The translations under genes were made by a program, and so were the position numbers. 64,000 bases of DNA from Oscillibacter sp. ER4 (GTDB lineage Bacteria > Bacillota > Clostridia > Oscillospirales > Oscillospiraceae), in NCBI RefSeq assembly GCF_000765235.1, contig NZ_JPJG01000014.1, forward strand, positions 1 through 64,000, in the 5' to 3' direction. Shown here piece by piece: positions 5,578-64,000 of the stretch; within the stretch, counting starts at the first letter, position 1; each line of letters opens with the position of its first letter. The notes beneath the pieces are model-generated. The model did not search any database. It had not been told where the DNA came from and saw only the letters and a list, made by a program, of their open reading frames with translations.

Positions 5578-6288
5578 TCATGCGTCGTTTTCGAGCATCC
5601 GGTAGCCCACGCCGATCTCGGTGAAGATATACTCGGGCGAGGCGGGATTCTTCTCGATCTTGCGGCGGATGTTCGCCATATTCACGCGCAAAATCTGATT
5701 GTCGGCCTTGGCCTTCGGCCCCCAGATCTGCTTGATGAGATAGTCATACGTCAGCACCTTGCCAGCGTACTTGCCGAGCAGCGCCACGATTTTGAACTCG
5801 TTGAGCGTCAGGTGCACATCCTGATCGCCGATGAGCACGTGGTGCTTGTCATAGTCGATGGTCAGGTTCTTGACGGTGAACTTGCCCGACTGCGCGATCT
5901 CGTTGTTGTCGAGCGGCGTGCGCGTGTGACGGATGGCCGTGCGGATGCGCGCGAGCAGCTCGCTCGTGCCGAACGGCTTTTCGATGTAGTCGTCCGCGCC
6001 GAGGTCGAGCGCCATGACCTTGTCATGCTCGTGCGTGCGCGCCGAAACGACGATGATCGGCAGGCTCGACCACGAACGAACCTCCTTGAGGATGTTTATC
6101 CCGTCCATGTCGGGAAGCCCCAGGTCGAGAATGATGAGATCGGGGCAGTGCGAGGTGATCATCGAGACCGCCTCGGCACCCGTCTGCGCCACCAGCACGT
6201 CGAAGTCGTTCGCGGTGAGAACCGTCGAAATAAAGTTGCTGATGTTCTGCTCGTCTTCCACCACGAGCACTTTATCCTTCAATTTCAC
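5578..6288 (-). CDS. kdpE: KdpE-like response regulator (OmpR/PhoB family)
   Basis: The 236-residue regulator has a receiver domain with acidic pocket E11-D12, phosphoacceptor Asp55 in LIILDLGLPD, and the conserved Lys in IEKPFG. A winged-helix DNA-binding domain follows, ending IFTEIGVGYRM, where KdpE proteins commonly have VGYRM. It overlaps its kinase by 17 bases. In other bacteria KdpDE senses potassium limitation and activates kdpFABC. No kdpFABC genes are in this window, so the target is unproven and the symbol is by similarity. Confidence 0.8.
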   Translation of the reverse strand: MKLKDKVLVVEDEQNISNFISTVLTANDFDVLVAQTGAEAVSMITSHCPDLIILDLGLPDMDGINILKEVRSWSSLPIIVVSARTHEHDKVMALDLGADDYIEKPFGTSELLARIRTAIRHTRTPLDNNEIAQSGKFTVKNLTIDYDKHHVLIGDQDVHLTLNEFKIVALLGKYAGKVLTYDYLIKQIWGPKAKADNQILRVNMANIRRKIEKNPASPEYIFTEIGVGYRMLENDA

Positions 6289-7354
6289 TGTTGATGCCCT
6301 CCTCCAGCGGCAGATAGAAGCGGAAGCACGCTCCGCCCGAATCTAAATTTTCTGCGGTCATCGTGCCGTCATGCGCCTTGACGATGGTGTAGCACACGGA
6401 AAGGCCGATGCCCATGTTTTTCTTCATATCAAAGTTGTTGTGCGACACGCCGGAAAGCCCGCCGTTAAAAATCGTCGAGAGCCTCTCCTTCGGGATGCCG
6501 ACGCCGTTGTCGCTGACGGAAAAGCAGGCGTTCGTCCCCTCGCGTGAGAGGCAGACACGGATCTGCGTGACGTTTCCGCCGTGGATGGCGGCGTTTTCCA
6601 GCAGATTCATAATGACCTGACGGATGAGCGTCGCGTCCATCGGCACCATCAGCACCTCGTCCGGTACCTCGATCGAAACCTTGATCGCGGGGAAGCGCTT
6701 GGTGAACTTGCTGACCGAGACGCCGACGATCTCCTCGGCCGCCTCACAGTCCTTTTCGATCTTTGCCTGTCCGCCGCTCATGCGCGTAATGGACAGGAGA
6801 TTTTCGACCATGCGGATGAGCCACTGCGCATCCTCATTCACGTCTTCCAAAAGGCGGCGCTTCTGCTCGGAAGAAAACGAATCCTCATTTTCGAGGATCG
6901 CGGCGGTGTTGCCGACGATGCTCGTCAGCGGCGTGCGGATATCGTGCGACATCGCGCGCAGGAGATTGGCGCGCACGGCTTCCTTTTCTGTTTCGATGCG
7001 CAGCCGCTCCTGCTTTTTGATCTGCGTGTTCATCGCGCTGATCATCATGGACACCGTCAGCATCGCAAGGAAGGTGAACGGGTAGCCGGTGATCGTGAAG
7101 TTGAATTCCCAGTAGGGATATGTAAACACATAGTTGACGAACAGCACACCGGAGACAGCGCTGAATATCCCCCAGAAATAGCCCTCCGTCCAGCGCGAGA
7201 TGGTCGCGACCGCCAGCACGAAGATGAGGTTCACGTAGCCACTGCCGTCGTCGATCCTTCGCAGCAGCGTGCAGAGCACCGTCGCCATAGCCAGGATCGC
7301 CGCCGTCAGCAAAAGGTCGTAGATCCAACGCATTTTTTCGGGGATTTTTGCCAT
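6272..7354 (-). CDS. KdpD-like sensor histidine kinase lacking the KdpD/USP N-terminus
   Basis: There are 360 residues. Four membrane segments of the DUF4118 type fill residues 10-105, with the loop WTEGYFWGIFSAVSGVLFVNYVF. The dimerisation helix has phosphoacceptor His137 in MSHDIRTPL. ATP-binding boxes follow: NLLENAAIHGG (N box), DNGVGIP (G1) and MGIGLSVCYTIV (G2). Full KdpD is about 900 residues, with cytoplasmic KdpD and USP domains ahead of these segments. Here those are absent and the ATG is well placed, so this is a short-form kinase. It is first in an operon with the response regulator. The signal sensed is unknown; potassium or turgor is plausible. Confidence 0.82.
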   Translation of the reverse strand: MAKIPEKMRWIYDLLLTAAILAMATVLCTLLRRIDDGSGYVNLIFVLAVATISRWTEGYFWGIFSAVSGVLFVNYVFTYPYWEFNFTITGYPFTFLAMLTVSMMISAMNTQIKKQERLRIETEKEAVRANLLRAMSHDIRTPLTSIVGNTAAILENEDSFSSEQKRRLLEDVNEDAQWLIRMVENLLSITRMSGGQAKIEKDCEAAEEIVGVSVSKFTKRFPAIKVSIEVPDEVLMVPMDATLIRQVIMNLLENAAIHGGNVTQIRVCLSREGTNACFSVSDNGVGIPKERLSTIFNGGLSGVSHNNFDMKKNMGIGLSVCYTIVKAHDGTMTAENLDSGGACFRFYLPLEEGINSEIEG

Positions 7355-7473
7355 GTCGCCGCCTTCTCTCGCTTGATCGTTGGCGCGGAGAAAGACTCCG
7401 CATGCTTTCCGTCCCCATTATAGCATACAGCCTGCTAATTTTGTGCTAAATCGAATATTTTTTTCATGGTAGC

Positions 7474-7497
7474 AAAAAGGACGGCGCGATGCCGTCC
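7474..7497 (-). terminator. Terminator after the OadG-like gene
   Basis: On the minus strand GGACGGC-ATCGC-GCCGTCC is followed by TTTTTG. Confidence 0.75.
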
Positions 7498-7531
7498 CTT
7501 TCGCTGATAAAGGAAGAAGTGGAATTCAAAA

Positions 7532-7804
7532 TTAAATCTTGCGGATGCTGACATTCGTCACATTCGCCATGTTGAAGCCGGGCTGCTGGGCGATCGCCGC
7601 CATGATGGCGACCTTGACCTCGTCGGTCAGACCGTCGGCAGGAACGGCGGGCGCTGCCGGCGCGGCAGCTGCTGCGGCGGGCTTGGGAGCCTCGGGCTTC
7701 GAGAGGATCTTGCCCATCAGGATCGTCAGGAAGATGATGCAGGTAAGGCCCACGAATGTGACGCCCATACCCATGATAACAACAAATGCGCTGGAAACTT
7801 GCAT
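7532..7804 (-). CDS. OadG-like sodium pump decarboxylase gamma subunit
   Basis: The 90-residue protein starts at ATG 7804, with AAAGGAG ten bases upstream. It has one N-terminal membrane helix (VIMGMGVTFVGLTCIIFLTILM, about residues 9-30), then an Ala/Pro-rich linker and a short C-terminal domain, LTDEVKVAIMAAIAQQPG. This is the layout of gamma subunits of sodium-pumping oxaloacetate or methylmalonyl-CoA decarboxylases, which anchor and assemble the alpha and beta subunits. No alpha, beta or biotin carrier gene is adjacent, and a terminator follows, so it is an orphan here. It presumably works with subunits encoded elsewhere. Confidence 0.75.
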   Translation of the reverse strand: MQVSSAFVVIMGMGVTFVGLTCIIFLTILMGKILSKPEAPKPAAAAAAPAAPAVPADGLTDEVKVAIMAAIAQQPGFNMANVTNVSIRKI

Positions 7805-7926
7805 CGGCGGATACGCTCCTTTTATGTATTCTGGCGCTATTATAGCGCGCAGAATTTGCATATCAACCGTTTGGAAGCCCTCTTAGCATTGGCTTAACGC
7901 GAAGAGTTTTTCCCTTAACAGCGTTT

Positions 7927-8699: not shown

Positions 8700-9360
8700 G
8701 GGACGCGGGGCAAAGGGGGTATTCTCTTCTCGAAGAGAATACCCCCTTTAAATCCCCCAGAGAAGGACGAGGGGCGCCCCCCTCGTCCCCCTACATTGGC
8801 AGTCGGGCGCTTGAATGACTGCACGCGCTGCGCAGTGTGGATGCGGTGTACATGGCTTCGCCATGAATCCCTGCGAATCGTTACCACTATCAACCGCGCC
8901 TTACTGTCGTGAGGCGCGAGTGACGGTAGAACGGCGGCAGACTGCGTGCCGAATGCGGCATTGCTTCGCTCGCCGCATTGTGGAGACTGGCGGTAGACGG
9001 GAATTAGGCTGTACTTCTATAAGATGGGCAGAGCGGCACCCGCAAGGGGTGTGCCGCATCCGTAAGGCAGCAGAGCCGCCAACGGCTGCGCAACAGCGGA
9101 TGATAGGAGCACATCAAGTCGTATAGCAACGCCCAACGCGGCAACGCCGCGCGCAGGCACTCTCATTCCGGAGGCGCAAAAGTCATTCGAGCCCGAGACT
9201 GCCAATCAAAAGCCTTTCTCTTGGGGTTCCAAAGGGGCCATTCTCTTTTGCGAAAGAGAATGGTCCCTTTGCCCCCGCCGCCCGCAGGCAGCATACCCCC
9301 TCGCACTTGTGCGAAGAAAGGGAGCATTCTCTCACGTGAGAGAATGTTCCCCTTCCCGCG
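8700..9360. repeat. Structured intergenic repeat A (hairpins plus terminal inverted repeats)
   Basis: This 788-base gap between two minus-strand genes has no credible gene. A 412-base body is bounded by inverted repeats at 8795-8819 and 9182-9206 (21 of 25 positions match; both begin ATTGGCAGTC reading inward). Outside each end sits a long hairpin: 8712-8749 (GGGGGTATTCTCTTC stem) and 9230-9271 (GGGGCCATTCTCTTT stem). The sequence next to each hairpin is also mirrored (AATCCCCCAGAGAA on the left, TTCTCTTGGGGTT on the right). A third hairpin of the same kind lies at 9318-9353. The body aligns along most of its length with repeat E, except for an extra stretch of about 57 bases around 9040-9096 containing module M. 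Confidence 0.85.
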
Positions 9361-9404
9361 TTCCCCACGTCAGGTGGGGGAATTTTCTGAAAAAAATTCT
9401 GAAA

Positions 9405-16984: not shown

Positions 16985-17280
16985 CGAATAAAGGGGACAT
17001 TCTCTTCTCGAAGAGAATGTCCCCTTTTGAATCCCAAGGGAAGGATGAGGGGGGAACCCCCTCGCCCCCCGGCATTGCGGTTTTGAGGCTTGAAGAGCTG
17101 CTCAGCCTGCGGAATCGGGTACCTGCCGGGTGATGGTTCTAAACGATTTGACTTTTTTCTATCTTCGCTGTCGCTCCCTGATCTGAATGCAGTCTTGGTA
17201 GAATCCCCTGCCGTCGCTAGATTTTGCCAACCTTGCTGTCCCCCCAAAGCGGCATCGCTGCGCTCGCCGCACTTTTAAGT
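16985..17280. repeat. Structured intergenic repeat B (partial)
   Basis: The gap 16904-17310 holds a hairpin at 16990-17027 (AAAGGGGACATTCTCTTC stem), then GAATCCCAAGGGAAGG, and a left end ATTGCGGTTTTGAGGCTTGAA from 17074 that matches the end of repeat E. The following bases match the inverted body seen in repeat C, and the end (GCGGCATCGCTGCGCTCGCC) matches the interior of A and E. The right inverted end is missing, so the copy is truncated. No gene is supported. Confidence 0.75.
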
Positions 17281-18512: not shown

Positions 18513-18606
18513 CAAGCAATGTTTGGCAAACCTGCTGAAAAGCAGGGACGCAAAGCCAGAGGGGTCTAAGGCCGCCGTGTGTGGTTATGACAGCCGGTTG
18601 CAAATC
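18513..18606 (+). promoter_or_regulatory. Cyclic di-GMP-I (GEMM-I) riboswitch
   Basis: The conserved core is plain. GGCAAACC (18525-18532) is followed by the capped P2 stem CTGCTGAAAAGCAG with its GAAA-type tetraloop. Then come GGGACGCAAAGCC, the P3 arm, and the tetraloop-receptor side with GGTCTAAGG and TTATGACAGCCGGTTGC. The base before CAAACC corresponding to position 20 of the Vc2 aptamer is G (18526 preceding C), as in c-di-GMP rather than cGAMP binders. Between aptamer and gene lie a hairpin, GGAAGGGCAGCGCCCTTCC, and a second pairing region ending in TTTTTT (18675-18680), which would suit a transcription terminator platform. It controls the zinc-ribbon gene at 18703. Confidence 0.92.
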
Positions 18607-49989: not shown

Positions 49990-50250
49990 TGCGGCAGGAA
50001 ACGGGACAAAAGGGGATATCTCTTCCGAAAGAGATATCCCCTTTTGGAATCCCCAGAGAAGCGCAAGGGGCGCTGCCCCTTGACCTCTCGTACTGCAAGG
50101 GTCAAACTACATCGATGGAACGATATGTAAGCGTTTTACTTCTGAACGACTTGACGTTCTTCTATTTCCGTTGCGCAGCCGTTGGCAGCTTGCTGCCTTA
50201 CGGACGCGGCATACTCTCTACGAGTACTCGTCGCTCCTGCAATAGTGTTA
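49990..50250. repeat. Structured intergenic repeat C inside the mod operon
   Basis: The gap 49859-50265 holds a hairpin at 50011-50046 (AAAAGGGGATATCTCTTC stem), then GGAATCCCCAGAGAAG. About 70 bases near 50144-50212 match the interior of repeat A read on the opposite strand, including module M at 50171-50212. Terminal inverted repeats are weak here, so this copy is degraded. It separates modA from modB. No gene is supported. Confidence 0.75.
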
Positions 50251-51359: not shown

Positions 51360-51480
51360 TGCCCCCCCTAACTCCGCGCTCCTTGGGCGCGAAACAAGCG
51401 TCGCAGACTTTTCCCCGCAAGGGGGATGCGGCATCCGTAAAGCGGCAAAGCCGCTAACGGCTGCCCAAGCCGTCCGCAGA
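51360..51480 (+). repeat. Repeat module D (module M copy and flank)
   Basis: About 42 bases at 51425-51466 (GCGGCATCCGTAAAGCGGCAA then GCCGCTAACGGCTG) match module M within repeat A (9051-9094) on the same strand and repeat C (50171-50212) on the other. No long hairpin of the A/B/C/E kind is adjacent, so the module stands alone. Confidence 0.6.
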
Positions 51481-61992: not shown

Positions 61993-62282
61993 ATTTCGGC
62001 ACTTTTTGTTATTCATCTTACCAAAATACAGCATGAAAGCGCGGTTTTCCGTTGTGGAAAGCCGCGCTTTGCCGTATACTGAATTTGGGCAATTTTGCTC
62101 ACTTCCATTCCCTCCCGCCTGCGCTACTCCACCTTTTACGTACCGCTCGCGGGAAATACAAAAGGAGGAACGTTTTCCGCCGAACCGGCGGTGCGGCAGT
62201 GTGGAGACCTGCCGTAAAGCGGCGCGCTCAGGCGGCTGCGAGGTCCTGCATCGCGGAGGCGGCAGGACTGCGGTTCACGATT
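61993..62282. other. Leader of the MsmK-type ATPase gene
   Basis: There is a hairpin of AAGCGCGGTTTTCC with GGAAAGCCGCGCTT (about 62037-62069), then GC-rich sequence with several short inverted repeats before the ATG at 62283. No strong ribosome site is seen close to that ATG. No gene is supported. Confidence 0.45.
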
Positions 62283-63497
<1,215 letters not shown>

Positions 63498-63540: not shown

Positions 63541-64000
63541 AGGGCTGCGTGAATAAAGGGGGCCATTCTCTCACGTGAGAGAATGGCCCCCTTTGACCCC
63601 CAAGAGAACGCAAGGGGCGCTGCCCCTTGACCCCGACATTGCTGGTCTGGAGCTTGAAGAGCTGCACGCGCTGCGCAATCAGGTGCGGTGTACATGGCTT
63701 CGCCATGAATCCCTACGTTTCGACACATCCAGCAACCGCGCCTTACTATCGTGAGGCGCGTGTGACGTTACGTCGGCGGCAGACTGCCTGCGGAATGCGG
63801 CATTGCTGCGCTCGCCGCATTGATTAGCACTCCGGTAGGCGGAAATTAGTCTGCACTCCTACAAGATGAGCAGAGCGGCAGCGGATAGTAGGAGCAGGTC
63901 AAATCGTATAGCAATGCTAACGCGGCAAAGCCGCGCGCAGGCAGCTGCATTCCGGAGGCACAAAGATTGTTCAAGCTCCAAACTGCCAATCTAAACCTTT
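63541..64000. repeat. Structured intergenic repeat E (near complete, right side cut by window)
   Basis: A hairpin at about 63554-63595 (AAAGGGGGCCATTCTCTCACGTG palindrome) is followed by ACCCCCAAGAGAACG and a body from 63638 to 63990. The body is bounded by inverted ends ATTGCTGGTCTGGAGCTTGAA and, inverted, ATTGGCAGTTTGGAGCTTGAA (17 of 21 match). The body aligns with repeat A over almost its whole length, lacking only the 57-base segment with module M. The matching right-hand hairpin would lie past the window edge. Confidence 0.85.

Follow-up and report, generated by a model that had tools for sequence, protein, structure and literature searches.

Copies A and E in the window

The window, by which we mean the whole 64,000-nucleotide (nt) stretch analyzed from a 113,770-b contig of Oscillibacter sp. 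ER4, contains two copies, A and E, of a hairpin-bearing intergenic element. Judging from translations, the neighbors of copy A are presumably a PEP carboxykinase gene (pckG) and a TrmO/YaeB-like gene, and those of copy E what we take to be genes for a MalK-type ATPase and a prolyl-tRNA synthetase. Copy A as a whole occupies 8712–9271, and copy E runs from 63555 to ~64059 of the contig. The element parts and related pieces in the window are as follows.

8712–8749, + strand: H1, left terminal hairpin of copy A; 18-nt arms, 100% complementary; left edge of the conserved block
8750–8794, + strand: H0, second module of copy A, with a CCCC..AGAGAA motif and a hairpin at 8765–8788
8795–8820, + strand: left internal inverted repeat of copy A, CATTGGCAGT type; 26 nt, 85% pairing with 9181–9206
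8795–9206, + strand: body of copy A, without cargo genes; among 26 aligned full copies
9039–9093, + strand: optional 55-b hairpin module in copy A; missing from E and many copies, polymorphic among strains
9181–9206, + strand: right internal inverted repeat of copy A, partner of 8795–8820
9230–9271, + strand: H1', right terminal hairpin of copy A; 19-nt arms, 95%; right end of the element
9316–9355, + strand: third H1-type hairpin, adjoining copy A; 20-nt arms, 90%; not seen at the A site of the other strain
16990–17280, + strand: half-element of H1, H0 and a diverged arm; partial match, right hairpin not seen
50007–50215, + strand: half-element of H1, H0 and an arm resembling that of 16990; partial match
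51414–51468, + strand: dispersed copy of the 55-b module; 85% over 55 nt
63555–64000 within the window, + strand: copy E; right hairpin beyond the window, to ~64059 of the contig

The window also has a malK-I RNA (62109–62288, 5' of the presumed MalK-type ATPase gene) and a c-di-GMP-I riboswitch (18515–18605), both above the Rfam gathering score.

The earlier note on this DNA, made from the sequence alone, had described A and E as copies of one repeat. The repeat is real: the two align at 80.4% over 331 nt and 80.6% over 124 nt, so that the similarity spans the body and is not limited to the hairpins. Several details needed correction. The inverted ends are present, but they comprise 26 nt at 8795–8820 and 9181–9206 and are 85% complementary, rather than 25 bases at 8795–8819 and 9182–9206. 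The hairpins at 8712–8749 and 9230–9271 are also present, but they had been placed outside the ends, and both are in fact the termini of the element. Similarly, the interval given for E (63638–63990) does match A, but the copy is longer, passes the window edge, and lacks the 55-b module.

The hairpins are assigned to the element because they bound the conserved block. Of the 45 ends listed, nearly all have the block starting at the left hairpin (the exception is C114:7827), and a right hairpin closes it. From left to right, a copy consists of the left hairpin, the second module (AAGAGAA plus a small hairpin), CATTG(GCAGT), the body, a right-end motif of one of two types (ACTGCCAAT or GCTTGCAATG), CCTTTCTCTTGGGG or a variant of it, and the right hairpin. 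Both hairpins were recognized in 26 copies of 491–564 b (46 distinct left cores). At many sites an extra short palindrome, read by eye, lies outside the element. The 55-b module is also dispersed on its own (51414–51468 and 50146–50214 in the window), and similar pieces occur in two other genera (L032, L034).

Copy number, range, and genomic setting

A merged hand tally of several searches gave 74 element places in the 2.73-Mb, 130-contig ER4 genome (G000), each search having scored part of its candidates (the copy A query gave 116 matches, and 40 of 102 first-look candidates were scored). Twenty-five of the places are no more than 560 b from a contig end, and any two of these may be halves of one copy; the remaining 49 include two on contigs of unrecorded length (C57, C60). 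Of 42 copies, 29 could be placed relative to genes. They are 490–565 b long, all are intergenic, and most are ~150 b or less from genes. Their settings are tandem (19), divergent (five), and convergent (five), and thus the copies are not confined to the 3' ends of genes. The element is short, has inverted ends but no transposase, and occurs as many dispersed copies, as is typical of miniature inverted-repeat transposable elements (MITEs).

Target-site duplication, which the earlier note had proposed looking for, was not found at the hairpin edges of these 29 copies: the mean longest direct repeat was 2.2 b versus a mean of 1.85 b (maximum 2.52 b) for shuffled partners. Two single copies showed direct repeats of 6 and 7 b.

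Among 60 genomes (G000 and 59 relatives), five match at an E-value of 1e-5. The body is found in G000 only, the hairpin end also in G005 and G012, and just the 55-b module in G022 and G031. In the genome_contigs set, the hairpin pattern returned nine stretches, all from Oscillibacter sp. MSJ-31; one MSJ-31 element (contig 18; L036/L101) contains a 205-b tandem duplication of arm sequence with copies 95% identical. The core pattern had no match in genome_contigs or viral_contigs, sets that may not include the own or a very near genome. A viral or plasmid origin was rejected, given no core-pattern match in viral_contigs and no element found in a plasmid search, and because 11 of 12 fetched phage-collection matches align with G000 through gene flanks.

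Longer relatives enclose a divergent gene pair

In G000, MSJ-31, and some further congeners, the element has longer relatives that contain two small genes in divergent orientation. One encodes a DNA-binding protein, and the other a small protein that usually belongs to a single family. A full cassette is ~0.95–1.35 kb and consists of two inverted arms, each capped by a ~36–44-b DNA hairpin. In MSJ-31, genes lie between inverted arms in elements of several sizes. The 949-b element encodes a 57-aa protein resembling Arc together with one of 73 aa; the 1026-b element, an HTH_26 protein plus a 94-aa product; and the 1354-b element, a protein that looks HTH-like from its sequence and a 67-aa member of the small-protein family. 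A 418-b form with no cargo is also present. In G000, divergent pairs of this kind occur at C52:14169–15258 and C46:4207–5306, and metagenome scaffold MT837348.1 carries a cargo-bearing element too.

Pfam matches above the cut-off were obtained for regulators of the types HTH_26 (5.6e-15 and 2.6e-13), HTH_3 (1.2e-12), and Arc (8.2e-5), the HTH_3 protein being from an MSJ-31 locus at which one end was found and its partner end was not. The RHH-looking protein of MT837348.1 has a sub-threshold CopG match (0.043) and matches PHROG 949, which is function-unassigned (2.4e-9). The small proteins gave nothing convincing in Pfam or PHROGs; from their sequences, the second small protein is probably helical in most cassettes.

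In G000, arms or hairpins of this kind flank six of the seven copies of the small-protein gene (C52, C46, C87, C111, C47, C98), and no enclosing arms were found for the seventh (C2). A profile built from three sequences matches 16 of 18 genomes of the genus. An inverted pair of 27 to 297 nt encloses the gene in 11 of 30 fetched loci (L166, L167, L169, L176, L177, L178, L182, L184, L189, L192, L194), or seven of 26 outside G000 and G005, where the best pairs are 210 nt at 80% (G013) and 157 nt at 76% (G002). The other 19 loci showed no such arms, and some of these are cut by contig ends. Controls gave zero of seven pckG loci and zero of 21 window tiles, the tiles being held to 30 nt; in two of the 11 positive loci the only pairs, located at a contig start, measure 27 and 34 nt. 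A script assigned a divergent HTH or RHH-like partner to nine of the 30 loci (including L187 and L188, which have no enclosing arms), and one was read by eye in L184 and in L189. L176, L178, L184, and L188 share a terminal hairpin whose stem resembles TTTCTCTTT. The arms of other congeners follow the same design with no detectable DNA similarity; the second-type arm of G000 matched two of the 18 genomes (G000 and G005).

More widely, the small-protein family was found in 35 of 120 genomes sampled across the bacterial family, and among 27 small-protein loci in other genera a gene-enclosing inverted pair was found in one only (L251; 50 nt, 80%). In one of those genera, the genome G128 has a small-protein gene within a separate dispersed repeat of ~670 b (L267–L276; 19 matches in the genome, with ten fetched copies that align). 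At the other end of that repeat, inspection by eye showed what looks like a promoter as well as a conserved tail that is non-coding, and no Rfam match was obtained in L267 or L269.

A and E thus resemble an emptied version of this cassette design, which recurs across several species in the genus, and they are best read as cargo-less, MITE-like members.

Site occupancy and turnover between strains

Empty sites in relatives, another check proposed earlier, were found. From the pckG stop to the next gene, G000 has 767 b at the A site, whereas four congeners have 4–103 b: G005 94 b and G016 103 b (computed), and G012 58 b and G015 4 b (counted from sequence). G002 and G004 have another hairpin-bearing sequence there, and G009 has a different neighbor gene. 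A between-strain case, with flanks at 96–98%, is MT837348.1, which has a 1-kb cassette where contig C83 of G000, near position 5671, has one hairpin, the same as the right hairpin of the cassette. Either insertion beside a hairpin or, equally well, loss of the stretch separating two hairpins would produce this difference.

For comparing strains we relied on 12 unverified human fecal metagenome scaffolds, the top of 17 phage-collection matches labeled "Bacteriophage sp." Records L103–L113 and L208 of this collection (MT83xxxx) appear to be chromosomal fragments of the gut bacterium itself. Eleven of the 12 match G000 stretches at 94–99% through the gene flanks, and L102 does so over 388 b only. 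A further search of the collection with G000 stretches added one record, without an element site. At 11 orthologous sites the flanks are 94–99% identical and the elements are inverted, partly or wholly replaced, or 83–95% identical. Specifically, the element is inverted at two sites (L109/L007 and L106/L012), a different allele is present at the A site (L111), one half is kept in L110 and L112, and the element is largely replaced in L113. It is kept in L104a (87%), L104b (83%), L107 (89%), and L108 (95%). In L105 the difference is the 55-b module; because the module interrupts the alignment, the top single match of this allele is to another copy. One scaffold, MT836034.1, lacks a 1.6-kb insertion present on contig C102 of G000 (L161 6540–8135), with a transposase that we take to be IS110-like.

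Allele-specific words in these elements are shared with other copies. Of 3722 15-mers that the orthologous G000 copy lacks, 1963 (53%) were found elsewhere in the fetched G000 loci, versus 741 of 29,896 (2.5%) for random mutation at 13%, a null under which whole replacement and patchy conversion look alike. The scaffolds carry 118–119-b coding deletions and inverted ends, and with such faults single cases of turnover may be assembly faults. Losses of ~118 b relative to G000 were excluded as evidence, since they fall in coding sequence and look like such faults. No copy in the fetched part of G000 is more than 87% identical to the L111, L109, L106 (inverted site), or L113 allele, which argues against simple chimeras. 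Overall, related strains appear to swap, flip, and rebuild cassettes in place.

This behavior could also reflect site-specific cassette exchange. In Acinetobacter, recombination sites flank small dif modules, which undergo inversion and deletion and in some cases carry toxin-antitoxin genes (PMC13141974). By analogy, the terminal hairpin would be a recombination site at which a recombinase of the host or the element inverts, removes, and swaps cassettes, which would account for the inverted cassettes at two of 11 sites, the differing cassettes at one site, the leftover single hairpin, and the two-gene cargo between inverted sites. However, although some junctions are at hairpins, other breakpoints lie inside bodies and beyond hairpins, the hairpin sequences differ among copies, and the left hairpin of the cassette at the single-hairpin site is not a hybrid with the target hairpin. 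The element is also chromosomal, with variable end sequences, unlike dif modules. We thus regard exchange of this type as quite unlikely.

Folding as DNA or RNA

The region 8700–9380 folds far better than 20 dinucleotide shuffles per strand (z of −10.6 and −8.6). When helices were restricted to Watson-Crick pairs, 26 copies gave 74 pairs. Compensatory change was seen at eight of them, none of which lies outside the second module and the terminal hairpins. If a one-strand RNA were under selection, G-T should clearly exceed A-C on that strand. In helices chosen without G-U, G-T and A-C numbered 17 and 15, with no excess and no strand bias in a set of only 32 cells. An RNA reading of the first consensus fold (G-T 254 versus A-C 37) was dropped: that fold had allowed G-U, and with G-U forbidden the excess was gone. 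A looser count over 95 hairpins (G-T 37, A-C 23) was set aside because orientation was not fixed.

The very stable folds, and the position of most of the 29 placed copies near genes, would suit functional RNAs or two-way transcription terminators selected at gene ends. Against this, no element match was found in Rfam at the gathering score and none was convincing at E 1, G-T does not exceed A-C, tandem, divergent, and convergent contexts all occur without a kept orientation, and the unit is missing at the same site in congeners. We consider such a role highly improbable; the hairpins would act as DNA, not RNA. Template switching can make and repair stems, according to PMC8794818, and by analogy the perfect stems of the element may be kept in this way.

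Search for a mobilizing enzyme

The fetched stretches of the genome yielded neither a transposase nor a recombinase with matching ends, and none of the elements examined encodes its own transposase. A full-length relative with a transposase and the same ends, which the earlier note had suggested seeking, was likewise not found among those stretches; what the longer relatives carry is the gene pair. The Y1 transposase family PF01797 has no match in G000 (98% complete) and is present in five of 14 control genomes, and mobilization by RAYT/IS200 was rejected on this basis.

One candidate autonomous form, the transposase in the element on contig C111 of G000, was rejected. It has its own inverted ends (6314–6332 and 7830–7848 of L207) and an apparent 8-b duplication (by eye), and was therefore taken for a nested insertion sequence (IS). 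This IS is ~1.55 kb (L207 ~6306–7857), has its transposase frame, presumably of the DDE type, in two overlapping pieces, and lies within the divergent promoter region of a cargo-bearing element.

Comparison with known systems and best explanation

Palindromic units are known to form mosaics between genes in E. coli (BIMEs), and the element could likewise consist of passive mosaic palindromes without a dedicated enzyme, long palindromes being duplicated, made perfect, and shuffled through replication template switching and ordinary recombination, with gene pairs caught by chance. The mosaic alleles, covariation confined to hairpins and second module with no strand bias, the lack of duplication at the ends and of a Y1/RAYT transposase gene, and the capacity of template switching to make and repair stems (PMC8794818) fit such a passive origin. 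On the other hand, the same kind of gene pair lies between inverted arms in several species, whole units are present or absent at sites, and 74 places in one genome stand against a body in none of 59 relatives at E 1e-5. The element also differs from BIMEs in being larger, in having genes in some copies, and in being present or absent as whole units. On balance, a passive origin seems rather unlikely.

Among other systems, REPINs (REP sequences with RAYT) are inverted palindromes that replicate as an extragenic unit (PMC3116915), whereas the unit here is far longer, includes genes in some cases, and has no PF01797 match in G000. Bacterial MITEs (Correia/NEMIS, RUP, ERIC, RU-2) are short dispersed non-autonomous repeats (PMC2229807). 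The element is likewise short, dispersed, and non-autonomous, but has a length of ~490–565 b, hairpin caps, cargo-bearing forms, tracts common to copies, and no duplication seen. The non-autonomous, MITE-like reading first offered for A and E consequently stands in part: dispersed intergenic copies, inverted ends, and empty sites support it, whereas the terminal position of the hairpins, the failure to find target-site duplications, and the gene pair of the longer relatives do not.

The closest likeness is to mobile insertion cassettes (MIC231 of Bacillus cereus, mic-qnrD), which have inverted ends, a passenger gene in place of a transposase, and mobilization in trans (PMC3913671). The longer Oscillibacter relatives, but not A and E, have passenger genes replacing a transposase between inverted ends. 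Unlike these cassettes, they end in hairpins and have arms reaching ~300 b, their cargo is a divergent regulator pair, and most element copies seen are empty; neither a target duplication nor an IS with matching ends was found.

We favor a mobile insertion cassette for which no helper is known and whose copies later exchanged sequence. A and E are taken, with a probability of roughly 60%, to be cargo-less miniature members of the genus's small, putatively mobile cassettes, in which hairpin-capped inverted arms surround a divergent pair of regulator and small-protein genes, mobilized in trans and later subject to exchange between copies. Cassettes would be inserted and lost at or beside hairpins by a putative enzyme supplied in trans, cargo-less forms would come from loss of the gene pair, and copies would then diversify by recombining with each other. 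Counting against this explanation are the failure to find an enzyme with these ends in the fetched stretches, the lack of target-site duplication, the equally good reading of the single-hairpin site as a deletion, the faults of the scaffolds behind the strain comparison, the 19 of 30 small-protein loci of the genus without arms, the one enclosing pair among 27 loci of other genera, and the lack of detectable DNA similarity to the arms of the other congeners.

Another arrangement that we consider unlikely is a chromosomal cassette-exchange system of gut Oscillospiraceae. Hairpins would be genome-wide landing and exchange sites at which cassettes integrate, flip, leave a single hairpin, and swap sites, and the gene pair would be the system's own control or accessory factor, not a passenger.

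Implications

Among the listed titles of full-text literature searches, mostly outside subscription journals, none was on this element. Its parts are of known kinds, and we have not seen described the combination of hairpin-capped arms, a divergent regulator pair, emptied high-copy forms, and fast site turnover. Element places coincide with many draft contig ends (25 of 74). At the 11 sites compared, strain-to-strain divergence is far greater in the elements than in the flanks, and it comes from tract sharing and not from point mutation alone. If the cassettes move as the preferred reading proposes, they would be a carrier of small regulators in Oscillospiraceae without a known enzyme. Because the small-protein family is present in 35 of 120 genomes and also within a separate high-copy repeat of another genus, a role for it in DNA mobility is directly testable.
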